Source: JAWOFN01 sp046497505 [NCBI: bacterium]
GTDB lineage: Bacteria > Blakebacterota > Blakebacteria > Blakebacterales
Length of the DNA: 26,117 nucleotides
Direction: 5' to 3'
NCBI GenBank assembly: GCA_046497505.1
Contig: JAWOFN010000008.1
Span: 1 to 26,117, forward strand
Numbering within the stretch: position 1 is the first letter of the stretch; the number at the start of each line of letters is the position of its first letter. Positions 2,444-19,876 of this stretch are shown one piece after another. A program made the translations under genes and the position numbers. Below the pieces are notes generated by a model. It did no database searches and was not told where the DNA came from. It worked only from the letters and a program-made list of their open reading frames with translations.

Positions 2444-3685
2444 TCAGCCTGGCAGCGGATCCATCATCTTCCCGATGAAGAGGATCGTCCCCGAGGTCCG
2501 CTCACGAATCACAAAGACGAAGGGCTCATCCAGCACGACCGAGGGGGGGACGGAGCGGTCGATCGAGACGACGGTGGCGGCAGCCGCCTCGGTTCCCTCC
2601 TCGTTCACCTTCACGAAGGTACTGTGGAGGACCCGGGAGATCGCAAGCCCGGCATCCCCTCCCTCGACCATGCGGTCGAAATCCGCGTCGGCTCCGAAGG
2701 CGATCTCCATGCCCAGGGCCTTGAGGACTTCGTTGAGGAGGATCTTGTACTCACACTCGAACCGGGGCATCTGGACGAGGCCCAGCTCCTGGGGCCTGAG
2801 CCCCTCGGTGATCTGCGCCCATCTCGGGCCATCCAGGCCCGCGATGAGCGAATCCAGGGTCCCTCCGGAAGGGCCGGGAGCAAGGAGGGTCATCGAGAAC
2901 AGCCCCCCTCCGTAGGGAAGGTCCACGGCGGTCACGTAGTCGTCGGAGTACAGCGGGAACTCCCCCTCCAGCTGCATGGAGGGTACCTGCACCACGCTTC
3001 CGTCGGCGCGGGTGAAGGGACGATCAGCGGTCTTATCCGGATCGAAGGGGTACTGCCAGGTCCCTTTGAAGTAGATCGCGTTGACCAGGAACATCACCTC
3101 GAGCGGGGATATCTGATCCAGGATCTCGGGGATCTTCTCCCGGGTGTTCCGGGCCACCCAGTCGTTGATCGTCTCCACCGCGGTGGGAGACCCGAAGTCC
3201 AGTCCCTGTACCACCGCGTCGAAGTACTCCTCGTTCCTCTCCACGAAATCGGCGGCGACGGGGAAGTCCTGCCGGTACCAGATGGAGTTGGCGATCTCCA
3301 GGATCACCTGAGGGTCCACGGTGGTGAGCAGCTCGATCAGGCTCTGGTAGGAGGTGTTGATCTCCTCCTCGGTCAGTCCGGCCAGCTCGAGGGTGTGCTG
3401 CATCGCCTCATAGGTCGCCCCCTCGGCCCCGTTGAGGGTCATCCCCAGCGCCATAGAGACACTGAGCGGTCCCAGGAACACGTTCTTGTTCCCCTCCGAT
3501 GCACTCACGGCCCGGAAGAGCTTGAGGCCGAAAGCGCCCCCGGCATCGGCGATCTGCTGTTCGGAGGCGGTGAGTTCCCGGGGTAGTTCGGAAGGGCTGG
3601 ATACACCGGGGTCTCTCGAGCAGGCTGTTAGAAGGACGAGTGCCGCAGCGGTGCCGAGCAGACCCGGGTTCCGTCGGATGGCCAT
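2444..3685 (-). CDS. Serpin-family serine protease inhibitor, lipoprotein (Arg-Ser reactive site)
   Basis: 413 aa, normal serpin length plus a lipoprotein leader. The start at 3685 (MAIRRNPG) is chosen over an in-frame ATG 18 nt upstream because AGGAGG precedes it. The lipobox LTAC (C22) predicts lipid anchoring. The fold is complete: the serpin hinge EEGTEAAAAT begins at residue 362, and the C-terminal strand has LDEPFVFVIRE and FIGKMMDP. Aligning the loop end with alpha1-antitrypsin (MSIPP against RSVPP) puts P1-P1' at R377-S378, which suggests inhibition of trypsin-like proteases. Serpins trap proteases by loop insertion, and the alanine-rich hinge fits an inhibitory member. It is second in a two-gene unit, 20 bp after its paralogue, and most of its sequence is nearly identical to that paralogue outside the loop. 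Target protease unknown. Confidence 0.93.
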   Translation of the reverse strand: MAIRRNPGLLGTAAALVLLTACSRDPGVSSPSELPRELTASEQQIADAGGAFGLKLFRAVSASEGNKNVFLGPLSVSMALGMTLNGAEGATYEAMQHTLELAGLTEEEINTSYQSLIELLTTVDPQVILEIANSIWYRQDFPVAADFVERNEEYFDAVVQGLDFGSPTAVETINDWVARNTREKIPEILDQISPLEVMFLVNAIYFKGTWQYPFDPDKTADRPFTRADGSVVQVPSMQLEGEFPLYSDDYVTAVDLPYGGGLFSMTLLAPGPSGGTLDSLIAGLDGPRWAQITEGLRPQELGLVQMPRFECEYKILLNEVLKALGMEIAFGADADFDRMVEGGDAGLAISRVLHSTFVKVNEEGTEAAAATVVSIDRSVPPSVVLDEPFVFVIRERTSGTILFIGKMMDPLPG

Positions 3686-3705
3686 GATGGATCCTCCTGT
3701 CATCC

Positions 3706-4956
3706 TCAGCCCGCCGTGGGGTCCATCATCTTCCCGATGAAGAGGATGGTCTCCGAGGTCCGCTCACGGATCACGTAGATGAAGGGCCGGTTGAACTGGA
3801 TCGAGGGCGGCATGGAGGTCACTCCGACCTCCACCGAGGTGACCGCCGCCGCCTCGGTACCCTCCTCGTCCACCTGCACGAAGGTCTTGTGCTTGACCTC
3901 GCTGATATAGAGCTCCTCCGCGGGTGCCGTTGCTCCCTGTTCCCACATCCGGTCGAAATCGGCGAGCCCCTCGGCGAAAGCGATCCCCATCCCCATGTCG
4001 GTCAACACGTCCTTCAGGGAGATCTCATACTCCGCGGTGAACTTGGGCAGGGTCAGGAATCCCGGGTCGGTCTCCGTGAAACCGGCGGTGATCTCCGACC
4101 AGCGTGCGGTATCCAGGCGGGCGATGAGCGAGTCGATGTGCCCTCCCGTTGCGGGCATGAGCAGGCTCATCGAGAAGAGCTCCCCGCCGTAGGGCAGGTC
4201 CACGGCGACCACCCGCTCGTCCTGGTAGACGGGGATCTCCCGCTCGAGCTTCATGGTGGGCACGTGCACGATGGTCCCGTCGGTCCGGGTGAAGGGACGC
4301 TCGCAGGTATCGTCCGGGTCGAACTGGTAGGTCCAGGTCCCCTTGAAGTAGATGGCGTTGATGAGATAGAGCATGGTCAGCGGATCGATCTCCTCGACGA
4401 TCTCGCTGATCTTGCCGTGGGTCTTCTCATCCACCCAGCCGTTGATGGTCTCGACCGCGCTCGGAGCGTTGAAATCCAGTCCCTGGACCACCGCGTCGAA
4501 GTACTCCTGGTTGCGCTCGGCGAAGTCGGGAGCGATGGGGAAGCCCTCGCGATACCAGATCGAGTTGGCGATCTCGAAGATCACGCGCGGGTCCACGGTG
4601 GTGAGCAGCTCGATGAGGCTCTGGTAGGAGGCGTTGATCTCCTCCTCGGTCAGCCCCGCCAGTTCGAGGGTCTGCTGCATCGCCTCGTAGGTGGTCCCTT
4701 CGGCCCCGTTCAGGGTCATCCCCAGCGCCATGGATACGCTCAGGGGGCCCAGGAAGACGTTCTTGTCCCCCTCCGCCTCGCTCACTGCCTGGAAGAGCTT
4801 CAAGCCGAACTCACCGCCGGCGTCGGCGACCTGCTGTTCGGCGGCGGTGAGGTCCCGCGGCATCTGGATGGGACCGGAACTGGTCGGGGAGTCGGTGCAG
4901 CCAAGGAGCAGAGCGAAGGAGAAGAAGGCGGCGAATAAGTTCCGTGCGCGGGCCAT
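3706..4956 (-). CDS. Serpin-family serine protease inhibitor, lipoprotein (Thr-Ser reactive site)
   Basis: 416 aa from ATG 4956 (MARARNLF), preceded by GGAGG. A longer in-frame ATG at 5100 has no visible ribosome site and would bury the leader. The lipobox LLGC (C20) predicts a lipoprotein. The body matches the downstream serpin closely, including long shared blocks such as NVFLGPLSVSMALGMTLNGA and a shared FIGKMMDP end, so the two are tandem duplicates. The hinge EEGTEAAAVT is inhibitor-like. The loop end aligns as TSMPP, giving P1-P1' T380-S381, a small residue typical of elastase- or subtilisin-like targets. The loop is one residue longer than in the neighbour. It is first in the operon. 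Probably protects the cell surface from host, predator or self proteases; that is inference. Confidence 0.93.
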   Translation of the reverse strand: MARARNLFAAFFSFALLLGCTDSPTSSGPIQMPRDLTAAEQQVADAGGEFGLKLFQAVSEAEGDKNVFLGPLSVSMALGMTLNGAEGTTYEAMQQTLELAGLTEEEINASYQSLIELLTTVDPRVIFEIANSIWYREGFPIAPDFAERNQEYFDAVVQGLDFNAPSAVETINGWVDEKTHGKISEIVEEIDPLTMLYLINAIYFKGTWTYQFDPDDTCERPFTRTDGTIVHVPTMKLEREIPVYQDERVVAVDLPYGGELFSMSLLMPATGGHIDSLIARLDTARWSEITAGFTETDPGFLTLPKFTAEYEISLKDVLTDMGMGIAFAEGLADFDRMWEQGATAPAEELYISEVKHKTFVQVDEEGTEAAAVTSVEVGVTSMPPSIQFNRPFIYVIRERTSETILFIGKMMDPTAG

Positions 4957-5037
4957 GGCGATACCTCCGGGGGGCCGATGTGCTGCGGTCTCCCATGGAT
5001 AGCGAGTAATTGCGGACTGGCAGATCACCGGGCGGGT

Positions 5038-5067
5038 ACTGTAGAGGAGACGGACGGGGCCTGTCTC
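5038..5067 (-). promoter_or_regulatory. Weak candidate promoter for the serpin operon
   Basis: Minus-strand GAGACA (5067-5062) and TACAGT (5043-5038), 18-nt spacer, in the 165-bp gap between glnS and the serpins. It would give a 5' UTR of about 75 nt. Nothing else is visible in this gap. Confidence 0.25.
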
Positions 5068-5121
5068 CGGTTTACTGGCGAGAGGGGTCCTCTGGGACAC
5101 CTTTTGCGCTGCCGGATCTTC

Positions 5122-7060: not shown

Positions 7061-7150
7061 GCTGATACTGCGTTCAGTCCGCAGAGGCGGATTGGATGCC
7101 TGGGCGGTTCGAGGCGCGGGATCTGAAGGGCCGAGGCACGAAGCCCGGAA

Positions 7151-7170
7151 GAATCCCTCCCTCTCCGCCA
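7151..7170 (+). repeat. 20-bp direct repeat, copy 2 (orphan tRNA-Ser tail upstream of gltX)
   Basis: Perfect copy of the tRNA-Ser(GCT) 3' end, with no tRNA-like acceptor, D or anticodon arm before it. It lies 29 bp before the gltX start codon, so it is in the gltX leader. The 90 bp between the copies carry no recognisable gene. Confidence 0.85.
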
Positions 7171-7199
7171 TCCTCTTCCTTCCTTTCCGGGGACATCCC

Positions 7200-8651
7200 A
7201 TGAACGAGACACCCCGAGTTCGTTTCGCGCCATCTCCAACAGGTTTCCTCCATGTGGGGGGTGCGCGGACCGCGCTCTTCAACTGGCTCTATGCCCGTCA
7301 CCACGATGGGGTCTTCATCCTTCGGATCGAGGACACCGACCTGGAACGCTCCAGCCAGGAGATGGTGGATGCCATCACCGGCGGTCTGCGATGGCTGGGG
7401 ATCGACTGGGACGAGGGTCCCATCTTTCAGGCAGAACAGGTGGAGAAGCACCGCGAAGCAGCCCTCGGCATGCTCGAGACAGGCCACGCCTACCGCTGCT
7501 TCTGCGACCCGGAGCAGCTCGAGGAGGAGCGGCTGGATGCTCGTGAGAAGGGGGATTCGTGGAGGTACGACGGTGTCTGCCGGCGCATAGACCCCGGGGA
7601 GTCGAAGGAGCGGGCCGAATCGGGGGAGCCGTACGCCGTACGATTCAAGGTGCCCCACGAGGAGACCGTCCGCTTCCACGACCACATCCATGGTGACATG
7701 CAGGTCGACGCGATCCAGGTCGAGGATTTCGTCATGCTGCGCGGTGACGGCCAGCCCACCTATCAGCTGGCCGTGGTGGTGGACGATGCCGATATGGGCG
7801 TGACCCTGGTCATGCGGGGCGACGACCACCTGAGCAACACCCCCAAGCAGGTGATGCTCTACCGAGCCATGGGATCCCGGGTGCCCGATTTCGCCCACCT
7901 GCCCCTGATCCTGGGGCCGGACAAGAAGCGTCTGTCCAAGCGGCACGGTGCCACCAGCGTGGAGGAGTACCGCCAGAAGGGGTACCTCTCCGAAGCGGTG
8001 GTGAACTTCCTCAGCCTGCTGGGCTGGTCGCCCGGGGATGACAGGGAGTTCCTGCGCCGGGAGGAACTGGTAGAGCTCTTCAGTCTGGAGCGGGTGTTGA
8101 AGAAGCCCAGCGTCTTCGATGAGGAGAAGCTGGAGTGGCTCAACGGGCAGTACCTCAACCTGCTTCCCAGTGAGGAGCTGGCGGGGAAGGCACGGGAGGC
8201 GTTCGCAGAGGCGGGCTTCGATGTGGAGGAGAAGAGCGATGCCTTCATGACCCGGGTGGTGGACCTGCTCAAGGAGCGGGTTCGCCTCTTCACCGATTTC
8301 CCCGAGCAGGGGGACTTCTTCTTCAAGGCCCCGTTGGGATACGACCCCGAAGCGGTGGCCAAACGGTGGAAGAAACCGGAAGAGGTCATCCCTCGGCTGG
8401 AACGGAGTCTGGAGCAGGCCCGGGCGGACGAGGTCTGGACCGAGAAGTCCATCGAGACGTGGATTCGGGGCTTGGCCGAGGCGGAAGAGGTGGGGGCGGG
8501 GAAGTACATCCATCCCATCCGGGTCGCGATGACCGGTCGTCACACCGGCCCCGGACTTTTCGAGCTGATGGCCCTGCTGGGCCAGGACGAGGTGGTCCAG
8601 AGGCTCGACCGGGCCATCGCATGGCTCGAGGAGACCCACGGAGAGGGTTGA
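7200..8651 (+). CDS. gltX: Glutamyl-tRNA synthetase
   Basis: 483 aa, typical for bacterial GluRS. It charges tRNA-Glu with glutamate in the cytoplasm; Glu-tRNA also feeds tetrapyrrole synthesis in many bacteria. The N-terminus MNETPRVRFAPSPTGFLHVGG holds the HIGH-equivalent HVGG (18-21), followed by RIEDTDLERS, GDDHLSNTPKQ and the KMSKS-equivalent KRLSKRHG (243-250). A CxCx24C zinc-site remnant is seen at C100, C102 and C127, but the usual fourth ligand His is Arg129. The start at 7200 is preceded by GGGGA and matches the family N-terminus; an in-frame ATG at 7092 would translate the tRNA-tail repeat and is rejected. tRNA-Gln and tRNA-Glu follow directly. With glnS present, a discriminating GluRS is expected but not proven. 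Confidence 0.98.
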   Translation: MNETPRVRFAPSPTGFLHVGGARTALFNWLYARHHDGVFILRIEDTDLERSSQEMVDAITGGLRWLGIDWDEGPIFQAEQVEKHREAALGMLETGHAYRCFCDPEQLEEERLDAREKGDSWRYDGVCRRIDPGESKERAESGEPYAVRFKVPHEETVRFHDHIHGDMQVDAIQVEDFVMLRGDGQPTYQLAVVVDDADMGVTLVMRGDDHLSNTPKQVMLYRAMGSRVPDFAHLPLILGPDKKRLSKRHGATSVEEYRQKGYLSEAVVNFLSLLGWSPGDDREFLRREELVELFSLERVLKKPSVFDEEKLEWLNGQYLNLLPSEELAGKAREAFAEAGFDVEEKSDAFMTRVVDLLKERVRLFTDFPEQGDFFFKAPLGYDPEAVAKRWKKPEEVIPRLERSLEQARADEVWTEKSIETWIRGLAEAEEVGAGKYIHPIRVAMTGRHTGPGLFELMALLGQDEVVQRLDRAIAWLEETHGEG

Positions 8652-8676
8652 CAGCACCCCTTCCCGGCATTTCTTA
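8648..8676 (+). promoter_or_regulatory. Candidate promoter for tRNA-Gln/tRNA-Glu
   Basis: A perfect TTGACA (8648-8653) overlaps the gltX stop codon. After 17 nt comes TTCTTA (8671-8676), a poor -10. The same TTGACA...TTCTTA pair occurs before tRNA-Arg, which raises confidence slightly. Confidence 0.3.
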
Positions 8677-8718
8677 CGTAACTCTACCGTGCGGCGGCTA
8701 CCTGCGGCACGGACCCCT

Positions 8719-8792
8719 TGCGGGGTCGTCCAATGGCAGGACATGCGGCTCTGGACCGCAGAATCGGGGTTCGAATCCCTGCCCCGCAGCCA
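8719..8792 (+). tRNA. tRNA-Gln (anticodon CTG)
   Basis: Acceptor TGCGGGG pairs with CCCCGCA, discriminator G, encoded CCA. The anticodon stem TGCGG/CCGCA encloses CTCTGGA, giving CTG. The weak first pair (U-A) is a known GlnRS identity feature. It is 10 bp upstream of tRNA-Glu and shares its terminator, so the two are probably cotranscribed. Confidence 0.97.
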
Positions 8793-12581: not shown

Positions 12582-13916
12582 ATGCGCAACCGAACGAGCA
12601 GTAAGGTCGGTCTCGCGGCGGCACTGATCGTCTCCGCGGGTCTGGCATTCAGCGGGTGTGCGGTGGATCAGCCCAGCGCGCCCGAGGTGACCACCGGCAC
12701 CATCGACTTCACCACCATGTCCGTCATCGGCAACTCCCTCTCAGCCGGTGTGGTGAACGGCGGACTGGGGGGCTTCACCCAGGCCAACAGCTTCCCGGCC
12801 CTTATCGCCGGGCAGGTGGAGACCGCGTTCATCCAGCCCGCCATCACCGACCCCGGGATCCCGACCAAGAAGCAGCTGGTCATCACCGCCCAGGGTCCGG
12901 CCATCGTGGACCGGTCCGGTGAGGGCATCCCCACCAACACGGGATACGCCGGGATCTACAACAACCTGGCCGTGCCCGGGGCCACCTCGGTGGACGTGAT
13001 GAGTGACGACGGGTCTTCCGCCGGGACCATCAGCCAGGTCATCCTGAGAGGGCAGGGGACCCAGGTGGAGCTGGCGGTGGCCTCAAGTCCCAGCATCGTG
13101 TTCGTCTGGGCGGGCAGCAACGATGTGCTGGGCGGAGCTCTCTCCGGCGTGGTCGCCGACGGAGTCACCACGGTACCTATCGCGGCCACCACCGCGTCCC
13201 TCACCGGGCTCTTCACCACCCTGGAGTCCCAGACCACCGCCGAGATCGTGGCGGCCAACGTACCGGATGTGACCACCATCCCCTACGTGACCTACCTGAG
13301 CAGGGGCTACACCTCCCCCCTCACCGACGACGCGGGTACCCAGACCGTCTTCCCCGTGATCACCACCGGTACGGGCACGGAGCGGCAGGCGACGGAGGAC
13401 GACTACATCCTGCTGCCGGCGGCCACCGCCTTCGCGATGGACCCCACCCTGGGACAGCCCACCAACCCCGTCCCGAACGAGCTGGTGCTGGACGAGGCGG
13501 AGATCACCGACCTGCAGAGCCGGGTCGATGCCATCAACTCGGTCATCGAGACACAGGCCTCGAGTGCCGGTGCGATCCTGGTCGACACCCACGCCCTGAT
13601 GACCGAGGCGGCGGCATCTCCCATGACCATCACCGAGGGCGGGGTGGACTACGAGATCAACAGCCTCTTCGTCTCCGACGGCGGGATGACTTTCAGCCTG
13701 GACGGCGTGCATCCCACCACCGCCGGCTATGTGATGGTGGCCAACTACTTCATCGACGTTCTGAACCAGGCCCCGGGAGCGGCCATCCCCCACGTCTCCT
13801 ACTCCCGGACCGTCTTCCCGAGGGTGGCGGCGGAAGGGAAGGTGGCGTTGGAGAAGATGCCCGACTTCACCGGGCTCCAGGAACATCTGATGGAGATCTA
13901 CGGGATCCGGCGCTAA
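12582..13916 (+). CDS. SGNH/GDSL hydrolase lipoprotein
   Basis: 444 aa. The signal peptide ends in lipobox FSGC (C26), so it is probably membrane anchored. SGNH blocks are visible: GNSLSAG (S52 nucleophile; the usual GDS Asp is Asn), a candidate block II Gly in NLAVPGA, GSNDVL (N180) and DGVHPTTAGY (D374, H377). These give a full Ser-Asp-His set for ester hydrolysis, probably of lipids or acylated polymers outside the inner membrane. The start ATG at 12582 has AAGGAAGGG upstream; an in-frame ATG at 12504 overlaps the FadL gene and is rejected. A central insertion of about 100 residues (200-300) lacks recognisable motifs. It is second gene of the FadL operon, followed by a strong terminator. 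Confidence 0.9.
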   Translation: MRNRTSSKVGLAAALIVSAGLAFSGCAVDQPSAPEVTTGTIDFTTMSVIGNSLSAGVVNGGLGGFTQANSFPALIAGQVETAFIQPAITDPGIPTKKQLVITAQGPAIVDRSGEGIPTNTGYAGIYNNLAVPGATSVDVMSDDGSSAGTISQVILRGQGTQVELAVASSPSIVFVWAGSNDVLGGALSGVVADGVTTVPIAATTASLTGLFTTLESQTTAEIVAANVPDVTTIPYVTYLSRGYTSPLTDDAGTQTVFPVITTGTGTERQATEDDYILLPAATAFAMDPTLGQPTNPVPNELVLDEAEITDLQSRVDAINSVIETQASSAGAILVDTHALMTEAAASPMTITEGGVDYEINSLFVSDGGMTFSLDGVHPTTAGYVMVANYFIDVLNQAPGAAIPHVSYSRTVFPRVAAEGKVALEKMPDFTGLQEHLMEIYGIRR

Positions 13917-14118: not shown

Positions 14119-15201
14119 TCACTCCAAATAGTGGATGCTGTGGGTCTTGAAGAGTACCCACACGTCCCGGCCGGTGCGCAGTTCGAGTTCGCGGACCGAT
14201 GCGGGTGTGACCTTCGCCGTGAGCCGGAGCGAGCCTCCGCAGTCCAGGTCCACGAGGGTCCACGGTCCCCGGGGGACCACCTCATCCACCGAGACGCGCA
14301 GCAGGTTCCGGGCGCTCGTGGGTCCCGGTCGCTGCGAGGCGAGGATCAGGTCCTCGGCCCGCACACCTATCCGCACCCGGCTGCCCTCGGGTAGATCGAG
14401 GAAGGGAGCCCGCAGTTGCAGGCCCCCGTCCAGCAGCACCCGGGCGGTCCCCGAGATGGGATCGCTCTGCTGCAGGGTCCCGGTGAGCACGTTCTCGAAC
14501 CCCACCAGGTGGGCCAGGACCGATCGATCCGTCTGTCGGAGGAGTTCGGGAGGCGCTCCCTGGTCCTGGACCCTCCCGGCCTCCAGCACCACCACGTGAT
14601 CGGCGAGAGCCAGCACGTCCTCCAGCTGGTGGGAGACCATCAGCGCGGGAGGCAGGAAGTGCTGCTTCACCCGTACCAGGTAGTCCAGGATGCGGCGGCG
14701 CAGGGCCGTGTCGAGCCCGGTGAGGGGCTCGTCCAGCAGCAGGAGAGCGGGGTCGGAGAGGAGTGCGCGGCCCAGGGCGACACGACGCTTCTCCCCGCCC
14801 GAGAGGGCGGCGGGACGCCGCTCCAGCAGGTCCTCGAGGTCGAGTACCTCCGTCACCTCGGCGAAGGCACGGTCTCGCCGGTCCGAGGGGGCCCCGGAGA
14901 TCCCGAACACCAGGTTCTCCGCCGCGGTCATGTGGGGGAAGAGGGCCTCGCCCTGGAAGACCAATCCCACCCTGCGTCTGCGGGCCGGAAGGTGCGCACC
15001 TTCAGTGGAGTCGTCCAGGACCCGTCCCTCCACCTCGATCCTGCCCCGCATCGGTATGAGGCCGGCTACCGCTTCCAGCAGGGAGGACTTGCCCGCACCC
15101 GAGGGTCCCACCACCCCGATCCAGGGACCGTCGCTGGCCACAGCGGTGCGGAGAGAGAAGTCCCCGCGGCGCAGCTCCAGGTCCAGGTGCAGGCGGCTCA
15201 T
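14119..15201 (-). CDS. modC: Molybdate ABC transporter ATP-binding protein
   Basis: 360 aa, normal ModC length. Walker A GPSGAGKSS (32-40), Q-loop VFQGE (Q83), signature LSGGE (133-137), Walker B LLLLDE (153-158) and the switch His in MVSHQLED are all intact. The C-terminal 130 residues form the molybdate-binding (Mop/TOBE) domain typical of ModC. It powers molybdate import through ModB at the inner membrane. Its ATG overlaps the modB stop (ATGA), indicating translational coupling. Identification as ModC rather than another sugar or sulfate ATPase rests on the neighbouring modA and modB. Confidence 0.94.
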   Translation of the reverse strand: MSRLHLDLELRRGDFSLRTAVASDGPWIGVVGPSGAGKSSLLEAVAGLIPMRGRIEVEGRVLDDSTEGAHLPARRRRVGLVFQGEALFPHMTAAENLVFGISGAPSDRRDRAFAEVTEVLDLEDLLERRPAALSGGEKRRVALGRALLSDPALLLLDEPLTGLDTALRRRILDYLVRVKQHFLPPALMVSHQLEDVLALADHVVVLEAGRVQDQGAPPELLRQTDRSVLAHLVGFENVLTGTLQQSDPISGTARVLLDGGLQLRAPFLDLPEGSRVRIGVRAEDLILASQRPGPTSARNLLRVSVDEVVPRGPWTLVDLDCGGSLRLTAKVTPASVRELELRTGRDVWVLFKTHSIHYLE

Positions 15202-15920
15202 AACGGCAGGACCGTGCTTCGGGCCTGCTCTCCAGTCCCTCCCTCATCCCGTCCGATATCGGTGACCAGCCGCTGTTCCACCATCGCCAGCAGGCCCACG
15301 AGGGCCATGGCCAGGACCACGGCTACCAGGGCGAGCATGACAGCCGTCTCATCGCGCCCCGTGGTGACGGCGGTATAGACACCGAGCGGGAGGGTCTGAG
15401 TGATCCCGGGGATGTTGCCCGCAACGATGATCGTGGCCCCGAACTCGCCCAGGCTCCGGGCGAGGGCCAGGAGCTGACCGGCCAGCAGTCCCCGGAGGCT
15501 GAGCGGCATGGTGATCTCCCAGAAGACACGCCACTCCCCGGCGCCCAGGGTACGCGCCGCCTGTTCCAGCTGCTCGTCCACCTGGCCCATAGCCACGGCC
15601 AGGGGACGGACCGCCAGAGGCAGGGCCACGACGAAGCAGGCTGCGATGGCCGCTCCGGCGGTGAAGGTGATCTCGATGCCCAAAGGGGCGAGCAGGGCGC
15701 CGATGGGCCCGTTGCGTCCAAGCAGCATGAGCAGGATGAACCCGGTGACGGTGGGGGGCAGCACGAGCGGGAGGGTCACAACCACCTCCAGCGGTCTGCG
15801 CCACCAGCCCCGGCCCCGGGCCAGCAGCCAGGCCAGCAGCATGCTCACCGGGAGCAGCAGCAGCGTCGCGGAGATGCTGACCAGCAGGGAGACACGGAGG
15901 ATGTCGAACAGTGGGGCCAC
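15198..15920 (-). CDS. modB: Molybdate ABC transporter permease
   Basis: 240 aa with about five to six hydrophobic helices, starting with SLLVSISATLLLLPVSMLLAW. The permease loop EQAARTLGAGEWRVFWEITMP contains the conserved EAA---G contact for ModC, and PLVLPPTVTGF is the typical ModB segment. It starts at GTG 15920, with GAGGGA about 8-10 nt upstream; no ATG fits. It lies 12 bp after modA and overlaps modC by 4 bp, so the three form one operon. Confidence 0.94.
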   Translation of the reverse strand: MAPLFDILRVSLLVSISATLLLLPVSMLLAWLLARGRGWWRRPLEVVVTLPLVLPPTVTGFILLMLLGRNGPIGALLAPLGIEITFTAGAAIAACFVVALPLAVRPLAVAMGQVDEQLEQAARTLGAGEWRVFWEITMPLSLRGLLAGQLLALARSLGEFGATIIVAGNIPGITQTLPLGVYTAVTTGRDETAVMLALVAVVLAMALVGLLAMVEQRLVTDIGRDEGGTGEQARSTVLPL

Positions 15921-15932
15921 GTCAGGGATCCC

Positions 15933-16739
15933 TCATTCCCCGGGCAGGGAGTCCGGAGGCCTGGAGGCCCGGATGGGGATGAAGCCGTATTCCAGCCACA
16001 GGCCGGCCGCCTCGTCCGATGCGAGCCAGTCCAGGAAACGCCGGGCGGCCCCGGGGTGCCGCGCGGTCTGTATCACACCCCCCGCGAAGATGATGGCCGG
16101 GGTGTGTTCTGCGGGGAAGTCCTCCGCGACCACCACCCTTTCCTCGACGGCGGCGTCGCTGGCGTAGACGATCCCCGCATCGGCCTCTCCCCGCACCACG
16201 TACAGCATGGCCTGCCGGATATGCTCGGCCCGGATGACCCCGGGCTCGATGTGTTCCCAGAGGCCCATGGATTCGAGGGCCTCCTTGCCGTATCGGCCCG
16301 CCGGCACGCTCTCCGGGTTGCCGATGGCGAACCGGCGCCAGCGGGTCTTCTGCAGATCGGCGAAGCTCCTGATGGGACTGGTCCTACGGGCCGGGACGAT
16401 CAGCACGAGGCGGTTGCGGAGCAGGGGAGTGAAGGTAGGGGCGTCGACCCGTTCCTCCTCGATCAGACGGCGTACGATCCGTTCATCCGCTGAGAGGAAG
16501 AGGTCGGCGGGAGCGCCCTGCCGGATCTGAGCCGCACAGACGTTGGAGCTGTGGAAATGGAAGCGGATGGCGTCCTCGGGCAGTCCTTCCTTCTCGAGAT
16601 AGCGCGCGGCCTGGGCCTGGAGGGCGTCGGTCAGGCCGGCTCCGGCGAAGACAAGCAGCCCCTGCTCGAACCCGCGACCGCATCCCGGGATCAGCAGGCC
16701 CGCCAGCAGGAATCCGATGCCGAGTTTGCGTATCCGCAT
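15933..16739 (-). CDS. modA: Molybdate ABC transporter substrate-binding lipoprotein
   Basis: 268 aa. The leader MRIRKLGIGFLLAGLLIPGC carries a lipobox (C20). It aligns throughout with ModA: FAGAGLTDAL, RQGAPADLFLSAD, GNPESVPAGRYGKEAL, RGEADAGIVYASDA and LEYGFIPI. Compared with E. coli ModA ligands, the second-loop Ser39 and the Tyr170 equivalents are kept, but the first-loop Ser12 is Gly (FAGAGL instead of FAAASL). It captures molybdate (or a similar oxyanion such as tungstate) outside the inner membrane for ModBC. The start at 16739 is supported by the leader and by a promoter with predicted +1 about 2 nt upstream; longer in-frame starts would run through that promoter. Confidence 0.93.
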   Translation of the reverse strand: MRIRKLGIGFLLAGLLIPGCGRGFEQGLLVFAGAGLTDALQAQAARYLEKEGLPEDAIRFHFHSSNVCAAQIRQGAPADLFLSADERIVRRLIEEERVDAPTFTPLLRNRLVLIVPARRTSPIRSFADLQKTRWRRFAIGNPESVPAGRYGKEALESMGLWEHIEPGVIRAEHIRQAMLYVVRGEADAGIVYASDAAVEERVVVAEDFPAEHTPAIIFAGGVIQTARHPGAARRFLDWLASDEAAGLWLEYGFIPIRASRPPDSLPGE

Positions 16740-16755
16740 GGTGGGCGAGTATAGG
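16726..16755 (+). promoter_or_regulatory. Candidate promoter for the class V PLP enzyme, overlapping the modA promoter
   Basis: TTGCGT (16726-16731), 18-nt spacer, TATAGG (16750-16755). Its -10 shares the TATA bases with the modA -10 on the other strand. Predicted 5' UTR about 52 nt. Confidence 0.4.
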
Positions 16756-16776
16756 TTGGATGTGCAGTCCGGGCAA
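16748..16776 (-). promoter_or_regulatory. Sigma70-type promoter for modABC, near-leaderless
   Basis: Minus-strand TTGCCC (16776-16771), 17-nt spacer, TATACT (16753-16748). Only 8 nt separate the -10 from the ATG, so +1 falls about 2 nt before the start codon and no ribosome site is possible. No ModE-like operator palindrome is visible. Confidence 0.55.
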
Positions 16777-16813
16777 ACGGCCCCGACACCGACTCCGACC
16801 AGGATGATGCACC

Positions 16814-17950
16814 GTGTGGGACGAATTCCGATCCCGATTCCCCATCTTCGAGACCACCACATACCTGAACACCTGTTCGCTGGGAGCGCTCAGCCGCACC
16901 GGTCGGGAGGCGACCGAACACTTCCTCGACCTGTGGCAGCGGATGGGCGCCTCGGCCTGGTACGAGCTGTGGCTGGGCGAGATCGAGGTGCTGCGGGAGC
17001 AAGTGGCCACCCTGCTGGGATGCGGTGAGCACGAGGTGGCGCTCTTCCCCAACGTCTCCGCGGGGGTGGCAGCCGTCGCCTCCGCTCTGGATTACTCGGA
17101 GCGTGACCGGGTGGCCGCAGCGGAGCTGGATTTCCCCACCGTGATCTACCAGTGGCATGCCCGGACCCGGGACGGGGTGGAGGTGGACCTGGTGCCCTGC
17201 GATGGGATGGGTACCCGGGAAGGGGCCTGGGAGCAGGCCATCGGTGAGCGCACGGCGGCGGTCGCCACCGGCCACGTCTTCTTCACCACCGGGTGGGCAC
17301 AGGACCTGGAGCATATCGGTGCCCTCTGCAGGGAGGCCGGAGCCCTCTTCATGGTGGACGCGTACCAGTCGGCGGGGATCCTTCCCCTCCCGGTGAAGGA
17401 ACTGGGGATCGATATCCTGCTCACCGGCGGACTGAAGTGGCTCCTGGGCGGTCCCGGCGTCGCCTGCATGTACGTGCGTGAGGGTCTCCACGACCGGCTG
17501 GACCCCCGCTGCACCGGCTGGTTCGCCGTGAAGGAACCCTTCGTCTTCGACACCTCTACCCGGGATCTGCGTGAGGATGCCCGGCGGTTCGAGGGAGGCA
17601 CTCCGGCCCCCGCCGCGGTCTACCCGGCGCGGGCAGGGCTCGATCTCGTGCTGGAGCATGGGGTGGAGCAACTGGGTTCCAGGACACTGGAGCTGGTTCG
17701 CTACCTGGCCCAGCGCGCCGGGGAAGAGGGGATGGAAGTGCGCATGCCCGAGGAGCCTTCCCGGCAGTCGGGAATCCTCATCCTCCCGGACGACGAGCCC
17801 CACGCTTCGGTCGGGGAACTGGCCCGTCAGGGGTTCATCGTGGATGCCCGGCCCACGGGCGTGCGGGTCTCTCCCTATGCCTACAACACCCGTGAGGACA
17901 TCGACCTCTTCGTAGAGAAGCTGGCTGCGATCAGGAAGAAGCGGGGGTAG
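16814..17950 (+). CDS. Class V aminotransferase-fold PLP enzyme
   Basis: 378 aa. Class V (NifS/kynureninase-like) signatures: N-terminal TYLNTCSLGALS, PLP-ring contacts FMVDAYQSAG (D182, Q185), the Schiff-base lysine in TGGLKWLLGGPG (K208), a FEGGTPAPAA loop, and the C-terminal SPYAYNTREDID. No cysteine lies in the C-terminal loop where cysteine desulfurases carry their persulfide Cys, so it is not an ordinary NifS/SufS; kynureninase-like, epimerase-like or lyase activity is more likely. The start is GTG 16814 with AGGAT upstream; nearby ATGs are out of frame. It is transcribed divergently from modABC from an overlapping promoter. That invites a link to molybdenum-cofactor maturation, but the missing Cys argues against it. 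Substrate unknown. Confidence 0.85.
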   Translation: MWDEFRSRFPIFETTTYLNTCSLGALSRTGREATEHFLDLWQRMGASAWYELWLGEIEVLREQVATLLGCGEHEVALFPNVSAGVAAVASALDYSERDRVAAAELDFPTVIYQWHARTRDGVEVDLVPCDGMGTREGAWEQAIGERTAAVATGHVFFTTGWAQDLEHIGALCREAGALFMVDAYQSAGILPLPVKELGIDILLTGGLKWLLGGPGVACMYVREGLHDRLDPRCTGWFAVKEPFVFDTSTRDLREDARRFEGGTPAPAAVYPARAGLDLVLEHGVEQLGSRTLELVRYLAQRAGEEGMEVRMPEEPSRQSGILILPDDEPHASVGELARQGFIVDARPTGVRVSPYAYNTREDIDLFVEKLAAIRKKRG

Positions 17951-18043: not shown

Positions 18044-19876
18044 TCAGCCGGAGGCCTCTTCGGCGGCATCAGCGTCCAGGGAGGACCGCACCCCCCGGAT
18101 CAGACGCTTCATGGTCAGCGGCTTGGTGAGATAGGAGATCCCCTCCATGGACAGGTATCGTTCCATGGTGGGGGTGCGCTCCTCGTCCCCCATGAGGGTC
18201 ACACGGGCGCCGCTGTCCACCTTACGCAGGTCCATGAGGGTCTTCACCCAGACCATCTCGGGGACCTGCACGTTGACGAGAACGAGATTGACCAGGCGGC
18301 CGTGGCGTTTGAAGAGATCCACGCCTTCCACCCAGTTCCGGGCGGGCAGGACGTTGTAGCCGAGCTGCCCCAGGGACTCGGTGATCATGCGGCGAGCATC
18401 CACGTCCTCTTCCACAACCAGTACGGTCTCATGGCCGCTGAGCGAGGCGATCTCATCCTCGGTGAGCTCGTCCTCCAGCTCAGGTTCGGGCTCCGGCTCC
18501 GGTTCCGGCTCCGGTTCCGGCTCGGGTTCCGGCTCGGGTTCCGGGACATCACCGGTCTCTTCGATCCCCTCGGTCTCCTCCTCGACAGGAGCGACCTCCT
18601 GCCCCGCTTCCCCTGCGGTCTCTTCCTCGATCTCCTCTTCTTCCAGTCCGGGCCATTCTGCGGCGTCAGCCAGCGCTTCAGCCTCTTCGGACTGGGGAGC
18701 GGTCGGGGCGACTTCCTCTACGGACATCTGCTCCCGGACCCGGGATCGCGGCAGGAAGATCTCGACCGTCGTTCCAGATCCCGGGGTGCTCCGAAGGTCG
18801 ATGTAGCCGCGATGGTTCTTCACGATGGCATAGGCGGCGGCCAGCCCCAGTCCCGCAAGGGGGCGATCGGTCCGCGTGCTGAAGAGCGGTTCGAACACGT
18901 GATCCAGCAGTTCGGGCGGGATACCCGGTCCCTGGTCGGTGACCACGATATGGGCATACGTACCAGCCGGGACGATGAACCCCCGGTGGGGCTCGCCCCG
19001 CTGCACCTCGGCTCGCTCAAGTCGGACGCTGATGTCCCCTCCGCCGTCGCGAGCGGCTTCCAGAGCGTTGAGGAGCACCTGCTCGATGACCTGGCGGATC
19101 TCCGCAGCGTTCCCGAAGACCTCGGGAAGGTCCTCATCCACCTCAAGACCCACCCCGCTCACATCGTGCCCTTCCAGATCCTCTCGATCCAGTATCTGCC
19201 GGGTGAGGGACTCCAGGTCGACCTCGGCACCTTCCCGTATCCCGCGCACAGGGAATCGCTCTATCCGCTGCTGAAGGATGTGGAGCCGCCGGACGGCGCC
19301 TTCCATGTCATCTGCCGGAGCCGCTTCCGATCCTTCCAGTTCCTGCAGGCTCCGGCTGATATCGCTGCCGATGGTCTGCATCAGACGGGTGATGAGATCC
19401 GTCTTCTCGGTGAAAGTGATCCTGCGGCGGAGGGCTTCCTCCTCGGTGATGTCCTGGAGTCCGAGGGTGACGGCATGTTCCCGATCGGAACTGGGCACGG
19501 CGGTGGCCCGTACGACGTGGACTTCCCCGTGTCTGTCGATGAGCTGCATTTCGAAGGACTGGGGCTGGCCGGAGGCCCGTTGGATGTACTGCTGTACCTT
19601 CTCCACATCCGCCGGGTCCGAGAGGTTGGTGAAGGGTCGCCCCTTCAACTCCTGGGCGGAGAGAGCGGTGAGATCGGCGAAGGACCCGTCCACCCAGAAA
19701 AGGGTCCCATCCTCATCCGTGACCGCCACCCCGTCGAAAGTGGCGGAGACGAGGTTCTCGTAAGCGTCCCCCGCTTCCTCGCCGTCGTCCTTCTTCTTGC
19801 CGAAGACGAAAGCCAGACCGAGGAGCGGTGTGAGCAGGGTGACGGCGCCGGGTATGTCGGTGAGTTCGATCAGCAC
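18044..19876 (-). CDS. Hybrid sensor-kinase-like protein with degenerate His and Asp sites (PAS-HATPase-PE linker-receiver)
   Basis: 610 aa from GTG 19876. Order: one TM segment (about 7-26), PAS domain (38-145), a helical HisKA-like segment (155-205), HATPase (215-378), an acidic linker (385-470) with 11 Pro-Glu dipeptides (445-466), and a receiver (482-600). The ATP site looks intact: N-box N270, DQGPGI (D314) and AGLGLA. The H-box reads TIGSDIS where families have AHD/AHE, so the His is Ser171; no other His lies in that helix. The receiver keeps its acidic pair (E490, D491) and Lys585 (TKP), but the phosphoacceptor is Asn535 (LVLVNVQVP). It may bind ATP and partners without phosphotransfer. 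The start is uncertain: GTG 20011 is in frame, but it would overlap the nadA promoter and adds non-coding-looking sequence. Confidence 0.88.
   Translation of the reverse strand: MLIELTDIPGAVTLLTPLLGLAFVFGKKKDDGEEAGDAYENLVSATFDGVAVTDEDGTLFWVDGSFADLTALSAQELKGRPFTNLSDPADVEKVQQYIQRASGQPQSFEMQLIDRHGEVHVVRATAVPSSDREHAVTLGLQDITEEEALRRRITFTEKTDLITRLMQTIGSDISRSLQELEGSEAAPADDMEGAVRRLHILQQRIERFPVRGIREGAEVDLESLTRQILDREDLEGHDVSGVGLEVDEDLPEVFGNAAEIRQVIEQVLLNALEAARDGGGDISVRLERAEVQRGEPHRGFIVPAGTYAHIVVTDQGPGIPPELLDHVFEPLFSTRTDRPLAGLGLAAAYAIVKNHRGYIDLRSTPGSGTTVEIFLPRSRVREQMSVEEVAPTAPQSEEAEALADAAEWPGLEEEEIEEETAGEAGQEVAPVEEETEGIEETGDVPEPEPEPEPEPEPEPEPEPEPELEDELTEDEIASLSGHETVLVVEEDVDARRMITESLGQLGYNVLPARNWVEGVDLFKRHGRLVNLVLVNVQVPEMVWVKTLMDLRKVDSGARVTLMGDEERTPTMERYLSMEGISYLTKPLTMKRLIRGVRSSLDADAAEEASG
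18479..18544 (-). repeat. Pro-Glu dipeptide repeat (11 units) in the pseudo-kinase linker
   Basis: 66 nt encoding eleven Pro-Glu pairs from alternating CCG/CCC/CCT and GAA/GAG codons. A 12-bp unit (GGCTCCGGTTCC on the plus strand) recurs. Such runs form stiff extended spacers and are prone to length change by slippage. Confidence 0.9.

Follow-up and report, generated by a model that had tools for sequence, protein, structure and literature searches.

A conserved hybrid histidine kinase-like protein that lacks both phosphotransfer residues, probably a PAS-controlled allosteric adaptor

The Gene and Its Surroundings

The window, meaning the whole 26,117-nucleotide stretch of DNA that was analysed, carries a gene for a pseudo-hybrid histidine kinase at 18044-19876 on the minus strand. 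The preliminary description had called this frame uninterrupted, and it is: the coordinates are correct, and the gene, which begins with GTG at 19876 and whose stop codon ends at 18044, encodes 610 amino acids with no internal stop. A longer start is possible, as an in-frame upstream GTG would add 45 residues if used, and the frame stays open upstream of the chosen start in the window protein and in its two orthologues, L001 and L021, alike. The shorter 610-aa form is preferred on the strength of an ATG preceded by a G-run, which both orthologues show at the position of the 19876 GTG.

The divergent upstream neighbour is nadA, encoding quinolinate synthase (PF02445; 20083-21066, plus strand). 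The same gene lies upstream of the L001 orthologue (73% identity over 165 aa by tblastn), and the L021 contig ends short of this point. On the other side, a class-V aminotransferase-like gene (PF00266; 16814-17950, plus strand) is the tail-to-tail neighbour in all three loci, with 62% identity between the window and L001 and 63% between the window and L021. Past the aminotransferase, L021 has a GDSL lipase-like gene (53%), the window counterpart of which is found at 12582-13916. A Pfam scan of 20 further window proteins detected no two-component domain, so none of these is a candidate local partner.

Other features of the window were noted in passing. In L021 the aminotransferase and GDSL genes are adjacent; in the window they are separated by ABC transporter genes for a solute-binding protein, a permease and a TOBE-domain ATPase (14119-16862, minus strand), which together look like a molybdate uptake system. 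Tandem genes for serpins (serine protease inhibitors) occur at 2444-3703 and 3706-5100 on the minus strand, both being full-length PF00079 matches. A 556-aa open frame (7074-8744, minus strand) is antisense to an entire glutamyl-tRNA synthetase-like gene (7092-8651, plus strand) and is most likely an artefact of high G+C content.

Domain Organisation and Predicted Structure

The protein had been credited with the full layout of a hybrid histidine kinase, and both Pfam and the structure model bear out the order PAS, DHp, HATPase and receiver, with the PAS, HATPase_c and Response_reg matches all exceeding their Pfam cut-offs. At the N-terminus, a hydrophobic helix (residues 8-27; 19796-19855, minus strand, as are all the following features) is followed by KKK. 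This segment, modelled as a helix with a pLDDT of about 35-53, is a putative single membrane anchor. The PAS domain (residues 39-143; 19448-19762; PF00989, E 6.6e-11) is modelled with confidence (pLDDT 83-94 at residues 41-140). Next is the DHp helical hairpin, with helices at residues 144-182 and 188-207 (19256-19447), which was placed by alignment and is modelled with a pLDDT of 59-68 over residues 151-210. It lacks the phospho-His, and the HisKA domain has no Pfam match in the window protein, L001 or L021.

The HATPase_c catalytic and ATP-binding (CA) domain (18743-19228; PF02518 match at residues 256-378, E 3.7e-21) retains N270, D314, G316, G318, G342 and G344. It leads into an acidic low-complexity linker with an EPEPEP run (residues 384-470; 18467-18727), where model confidence is low; the linkers of the orthologues are also acidic, and their sequence is poorly kept. 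The C-terminal pseudo-receiver domain (REC; residues 482-605; 18062-18433) is built of alternating strands and helices with a pLDDT of 82-96 at residues 481-600. Its Response_reg match (PF00072, E 1.4e-11) covers residues 485-594 and scores 45 bits against a cut-off of 30.2.

The AlphaFold model, for which 24 of the 33 aligned sequences served as input, has a mean pLDDT of 76.4 and a pTM of 0.42; the PAS and receiver domains are confident, the CA domain is mostly so, and the DHp hairpin is modest. When the model was compared with the PDB by Foldseek, the top matches were sensor kinases and blue-light and LOV kinases, and ranks 23-25 were taken by DivL (4q20, rank 23) and CckA (5idj and 5idm). 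By sequence, the nearest solved proteins are CckA 5idj (E 1.6e-25) and 5idm.

Residues at the Phosphotransfer and ATP Sites

Residue columns were read from an alignment that set the protein beside 30 further histidine-kinase loci. Seven of these rows are empty at the Asp column of the receiver and were excluded from the receiver counts (n = 23), and one locus with Leu at the His column (L029) is included in all counts. The two substitutions that the preliminary description had reported were both borne out. Ser171 (codon AGC, 19364-19366) occupies the phospho-His column, which is His in 29 of the 30 comparison kinases and Leu in the other. Asn535 (codon AAC, 18272-18274) occupies the phospho-Asp column, which is Asp in all 23 comparison receivers. 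Across the three family members the His column reads Ser, Thr and Thr and the Asp column is Asn throughout. Asp172, next to Ser171, is likewise invariant in the family.

A substitute phospho-His was sought within the dimerisation helices, and no His is common to the three family DHp sequences. H199, the sole His within residues 144-215 of the window protein, was considered and rejected, as it is not His in the orthologues; a single His in the DHp region of L021 is found in neither of the other two members. The H+4 position is also altered, being Arg175 in the window protein and Arg, Met and Met in the family, where the 30 comparison rows have 25 Asn, 4 Thr and 1 Glu.

An ATP site of intact appearance had been described, and this holds in part. 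N270, D314, G316, G318, G342 and G344 are identical across the family and in 30 of 30 comparison rows. However, the first Gly of the G2 box in the ATP lid, present in 30 of 30 comparison rows, is replaced by Leu340 (18857-18859), followed by Ala341 in the window protein, and the Leu is shared by all three orthologues. In the receiver, the lysine and acidic pair had been described as kept. Lys585 (18122-18124) is indeed retained, but the acidic pair is Glu489-Glu490, at the second position of which 22 of the 23 comparison receivers have Asp; Glu490 is identical in all three family members. A further loss concerns the receiver switch column, where the comparison receivers have 17 Ser, 5 Thr and 1 Ala and all three orthologues have Gly (Gly563, 18188-18190). 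All three known members have thus lost the phospho-His, the phospho-Asp, the switch Thr/Ser and the common H+4 residue, and purifying selection on the domains concerned is strong.

Orthologues and Selective Constraint

At least 13 loci matched the window protein in a contig scan. Among the matches listed, only L001, from the MAG bacterium Meg19_1012_Bin_119 (genome G001), spans residues 17-606, with 44% identity in the best segment; the other 12 loci among them are partial matches of 22-38% identity. Two of the four genomes in the phylum of G001 match at E 1e-30, the second match being L021 in G002; the other two, assemblies of 1.7-2.0 Mb with completeness unstated, gave no match at that threshold. 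The orthologues share 45% and 46% identity with the window protein and 67% with each other.

Close orthologues with a normal His and Asp did not appear: a three-sequence profile was run against 386 related genomes, with up to three candidates scored in each, and at E 1e-50 it recovered the same two proteins. At E 1e-25, 18 further genomes match among 193 (best 4.8e-33), and 17 of the 18 loci from these genomes carry the normal His. Among viral contigs, 455 pattern matches in one scan yielded no confirmed relative, and among the 824 plasmid records that match, none has a single place covering 80% of the query, the ten matches listed being 27-30% identical. The family therefore looks narrow, as judged by searches whose deepest part covered the relatives of G001. 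Because the family has three known members and two of these are close, few independent events stand behind the word "conserved", and the His column itself is Ser in one and Thr in two.

Codons were compared per domain by NG86, and dN/dS is below 1 wherever dS can be computed; several dS values are close to saturation or undefined. Identity between L001 and L021 is 92% in DHp, 78% in REC, 75% in CA, 64% in PAS, 64% at the N-terminus and 32% in the linker, with dN and dS of 0.07 and 2.4 for DHp, 0.14 and 1.2 for REC, and 0.18 and 1.8 for CA. The window protein, compared with L001 and L021 respectively, is 65% and 64% identical in REC (dN 0.30-0.31), 48% and 49% in DHp, 43% and 43% in CA, and 39% and 40% in PAS.

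The earlier suggestion that selection rather than decay explains the two losses is supported by these values, as both losses recur in three proteins that are 45-67% identical and the nominally dead domains are the most constrained. Decay is very unlikely, to judge from the sequences, because the His-less DHp and the Asn-bearing receiver are the most tightly kept domains. A sequencing artefact is unlikely because two other assemblies show the same pattern and because the codons at the His column (AGC, ACC and ACC) are at least two base changes from any His codon.

The Pseudo-Receiver Compared with Receivers of the Same Genomes

A PF00072 search of G001 and G002 found 80 places. Among 81 distinct receiver stretches from these genomes, L001 and L021 included, 76 have Asp at the Asp column, 4 have Asn and 1 is blank at this position. 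The pseudo-hybrid kinase family accounts for two of the Asn receivers, and its members are the only two of the 81 with Gly at the switch position. The other two Asn receivers form a second conserved pair (L114/L112).

This second Asn-receiver was recorded at L121:2238-2798 (contig C211 of G001) and at L112 (contig C220 of G002), and in G001 it is a 186-aa ORF, IVLLNVQIRDMDG. It keeps the Lys, and its acidic pair is E-S. In G001 it is flanked by genes that, named by reading, encode an NtrC-like regulator and an ordinary PAS-hybrid kinase, and it may thus be part of a two-component cluster.

Receiver α1 is a helix that docks on kinases and HPt proteins. Within the pseudo-receiver, the residues invariant in all three family members amount to 3 of 13 in α1, 8 of 11 in α2, 11 of 14 in α3, 6 of 10 in α4 and 7 of 13 in α5. 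For a comparison with other receivers, the 81 were filtered to remove duplicates and stretches of under 95 residues, leaving 45 and 28. The 24 other reciprocal-best pairs, among them the second Asn-receiver pair, have a mean identity of 0.87 in α1, 0.71 in α2, 0.82 in α3, 0.86 in α4 and 0.86 in α5, and the corresponding values for the family pair are 0.54, 0.82, 0.86, 0.80 and 0.69. By excess of α2/α3 over α1 conservation, the family pair comes out top of the 25 (0.30), with the second Asn pair next (0.15); with α5 added to the score, the family pair is again first (0.22), followed by an ordinary pair (0.19) and the other Asn pair (0.17). Because both helix scores were picked after the data had been seen, the excess is a lead.

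At the level of sequence, the drift of α1 is in keeping with phosphotransfer having been lost, and the conservation on the α2-α3 side suggests an alternative contact surface. There is a precedent for partner binding by a pseudo-receiver in FrzS, which is reported to use its α3-β4-α4 face (PMC12632262). The conserved α2-α3 surface gives the search for a partner a concrete place to start.

Relation to Known Systems

In RcsD, phosphate is relayed by an HPt domain; an HPt domain is absent from the Pfam matches of the pseudo-hybrid kinase. RcsD is described as a membrane protein, as the present one is predicted to be, and its kinase core is likewise missing the conserved His; autophosphorylation has nevertheless been reported for it, perhaps on another His (PMC3762810). 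By analogy, this precedent would point away from a pseudo-kinase reading.

The best reading of how the pseudo-hybrid kinase works is by likeness to DivL of Caulobacter, of which it is not an orthologue: the Tyr that marks DivL at the His position is Ser or Thr here. Both have PAS input, a DHp-CA core with its motifs and a hydroxyl residue in place of the phospho-His, and the His substitution is reported to be kept in nearly all DivL homologues (PMC4211667). The DivL layout given in that source, PAS domains followed by DHp-CA, lists no receiver, whereas the pseudo-hybrid kinase has a C-terminal pseudo-receiver and also differs by the G340L change in the lid. The same source reports neither kinase nor phosphatase activity for DivL in vitro and ties its influence on the CckA pathway to binding of DivK~P (PMC4211667).

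CckA and the HDFNN-type hybrid kinases resemble the protein as hybrid kinases with PAS domains. The best named model is NCBIfam CckA (E 2.4e-40), but the score is 138.2 bits against an equivalog cut-off of 1000, and the phospho-His and phospho-Asp are missing here. Tyr349 may align with Tyr514 of CckA, but a Tyr at this place is also common in ordinary kinases, which weakens the case for a CckA-like c-di-GMP site. In CckA, c-di-GMP binding is reported to occur via Tyr514 (PMC5189948).

Asp-less receivers have been described in RitR, FrzS, CikA and ShkA. RitR likewise has Asn at the Asp position, and Asn is given as 16% of receiver Asp substitutions (PMC4395418). In ShkA and CikA, the pseudo-receiver is reported to inhibit autophosphorylation of an active kinase (PMC12632262), whereas here the Asp-less receiver is joined to a His-less kinase core. 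A survey quoted in the same source counted 0.9% of HisKA domains as His-less (722/76,471) and 2.0% of receivers as Asp-less (3,111/152,269) (PMC12632262). In a literature search, no bacterial protein lacking both residues was found among the matches listed, as judged by titles and the starts of abstracts, and RcsD was the nearest partial precedent; two candidate leads, PMC6791715 and PMC11481889, proved to have no bearing on the question. Each loss on its own is known though uncommon, and their combination in a conserved protein counts as an uncommon variant.

Proposed Function and Alternatives

The kinase fold without a phospho-His, kept by selection in three members, places the protein among pseudo-histidine kinases, and a PF00072 domain with Asn535 places its C-terminus among Asp-less receivers; an active hybrid kinase would need both the phospho-His and the phospho-Asp, and it has neither. 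Automatic annotation would probably label the gene a hybrid sensor histidine kinase. Our main reading, to which we give a probability of roughly 0.7, is that of a vertically kept, PAS-controlled pseudo-hybrid kinase that acts as an allosteric adaptor, with output by protein contact rather than phosphotransfer. The protein would be a membrane-anchored sensor, dimerising via DHp, in which input at the PAS domain changes the conformation of the His-less DHp and the ATPase-derived module. The signal would leave through protein contact made by the pseudo-receiver, with a partner-binding output surface predicted on helices α2-α3. The likeliest class of partner, by the precedent of DivL, may be another kinase or a response regulator in a multikinase network. 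More tentatively, the family could exemplify lineage-specific, phosphotransfer-free hybrid "kinases" in which PAS-DHp-CA-receiver forms a conformational relay with output at the α2-β3-α3 face, not at α1 or α4-β5-α5; we lean against so specific a version. A conserved protein with both losses offers a clean natural test of two-component signalling on shape alone.

As a sub-case of the adaptor reading, nucleotide binding by the CA domain could be the main input, with ATP rearranging DHp and the pseudo-receiver. The six motif residues identical in the family and in the 30 comparison rows, together with 75% CA identity in the closer orthologue pair, lend this some credit, and residual nucleotide binding through an altered lid is possible. 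Even so, ATP binding is uncertain by analogy because the lid carries G340L and because DivL keeps its motifs yet is reported to bind TNP-ATP weakly (57 uM; PMC4211667). Measured against the window protein, moreover, CA (43%) falls behind REC and DHp in conservation, and a switch gated by ATP in the first place seems to us a serious option that we would not favour.

Improbable, by contrast, is a role as the phosphatase regulator of another system in which the protein's own His and Asp are dispensable. The conserved His is reported to be non-essential for HisKA phosphatase activity (PMC12632262), which would leave room for such a role. At H+4, however, the family has Arg, Met and Met against the prevailing Asn of the comparison rows. 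This position is linked to HisKA phosphatase chemistry.

Still harder to sustain is a hydroxyl-acceptor autokinase, in which CA would phosphorylate DHp on Ser171 or its Thr counterpart with Asp172 kept as the base. HATPase-fold Ser kinases such as SpoIIAB and pyruvate dehydrogenase kinase do this with other substrates. The hydroxyl residue in the His column of all three members, the invariant Asp172, the retained N and G1 boxes with most of G2, and the reported autophosphorylation of RcsD without the conserved His (PMC3762810) speak for such an enzyme. Ser and Thr are also merely small polar residues, though; Leu replaces the first G2-box Gly in all three, the protein's own receiver has neither the Asp nor the switch Thr/Ser, and DivL, with Tyr at the His column, is reported to have no autokinase activity (PMC4211667). 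Set against the adaptor reading, recent decay or a sequencing error in an ordinary hybrid kinase deserves almost no credence: a double residue loss is what decay might first look like, but nothing else was found in its support, and decay, frameshift and error are ruled out by two orthologues that have lost the same two sites in uninterrupted frames, with the affected domains constrained and the neighbours conserved.

A different departure from the usual kinase pattern was seen among the comparison loci. The hybrid kinase L029 (genome G007), with the H-box VVLEYNNTL, carries Leu where the phospho-His would be, together with Asn at H+4 and a receiver whose Asp is normal, and is possibly a phosphatase-only form.
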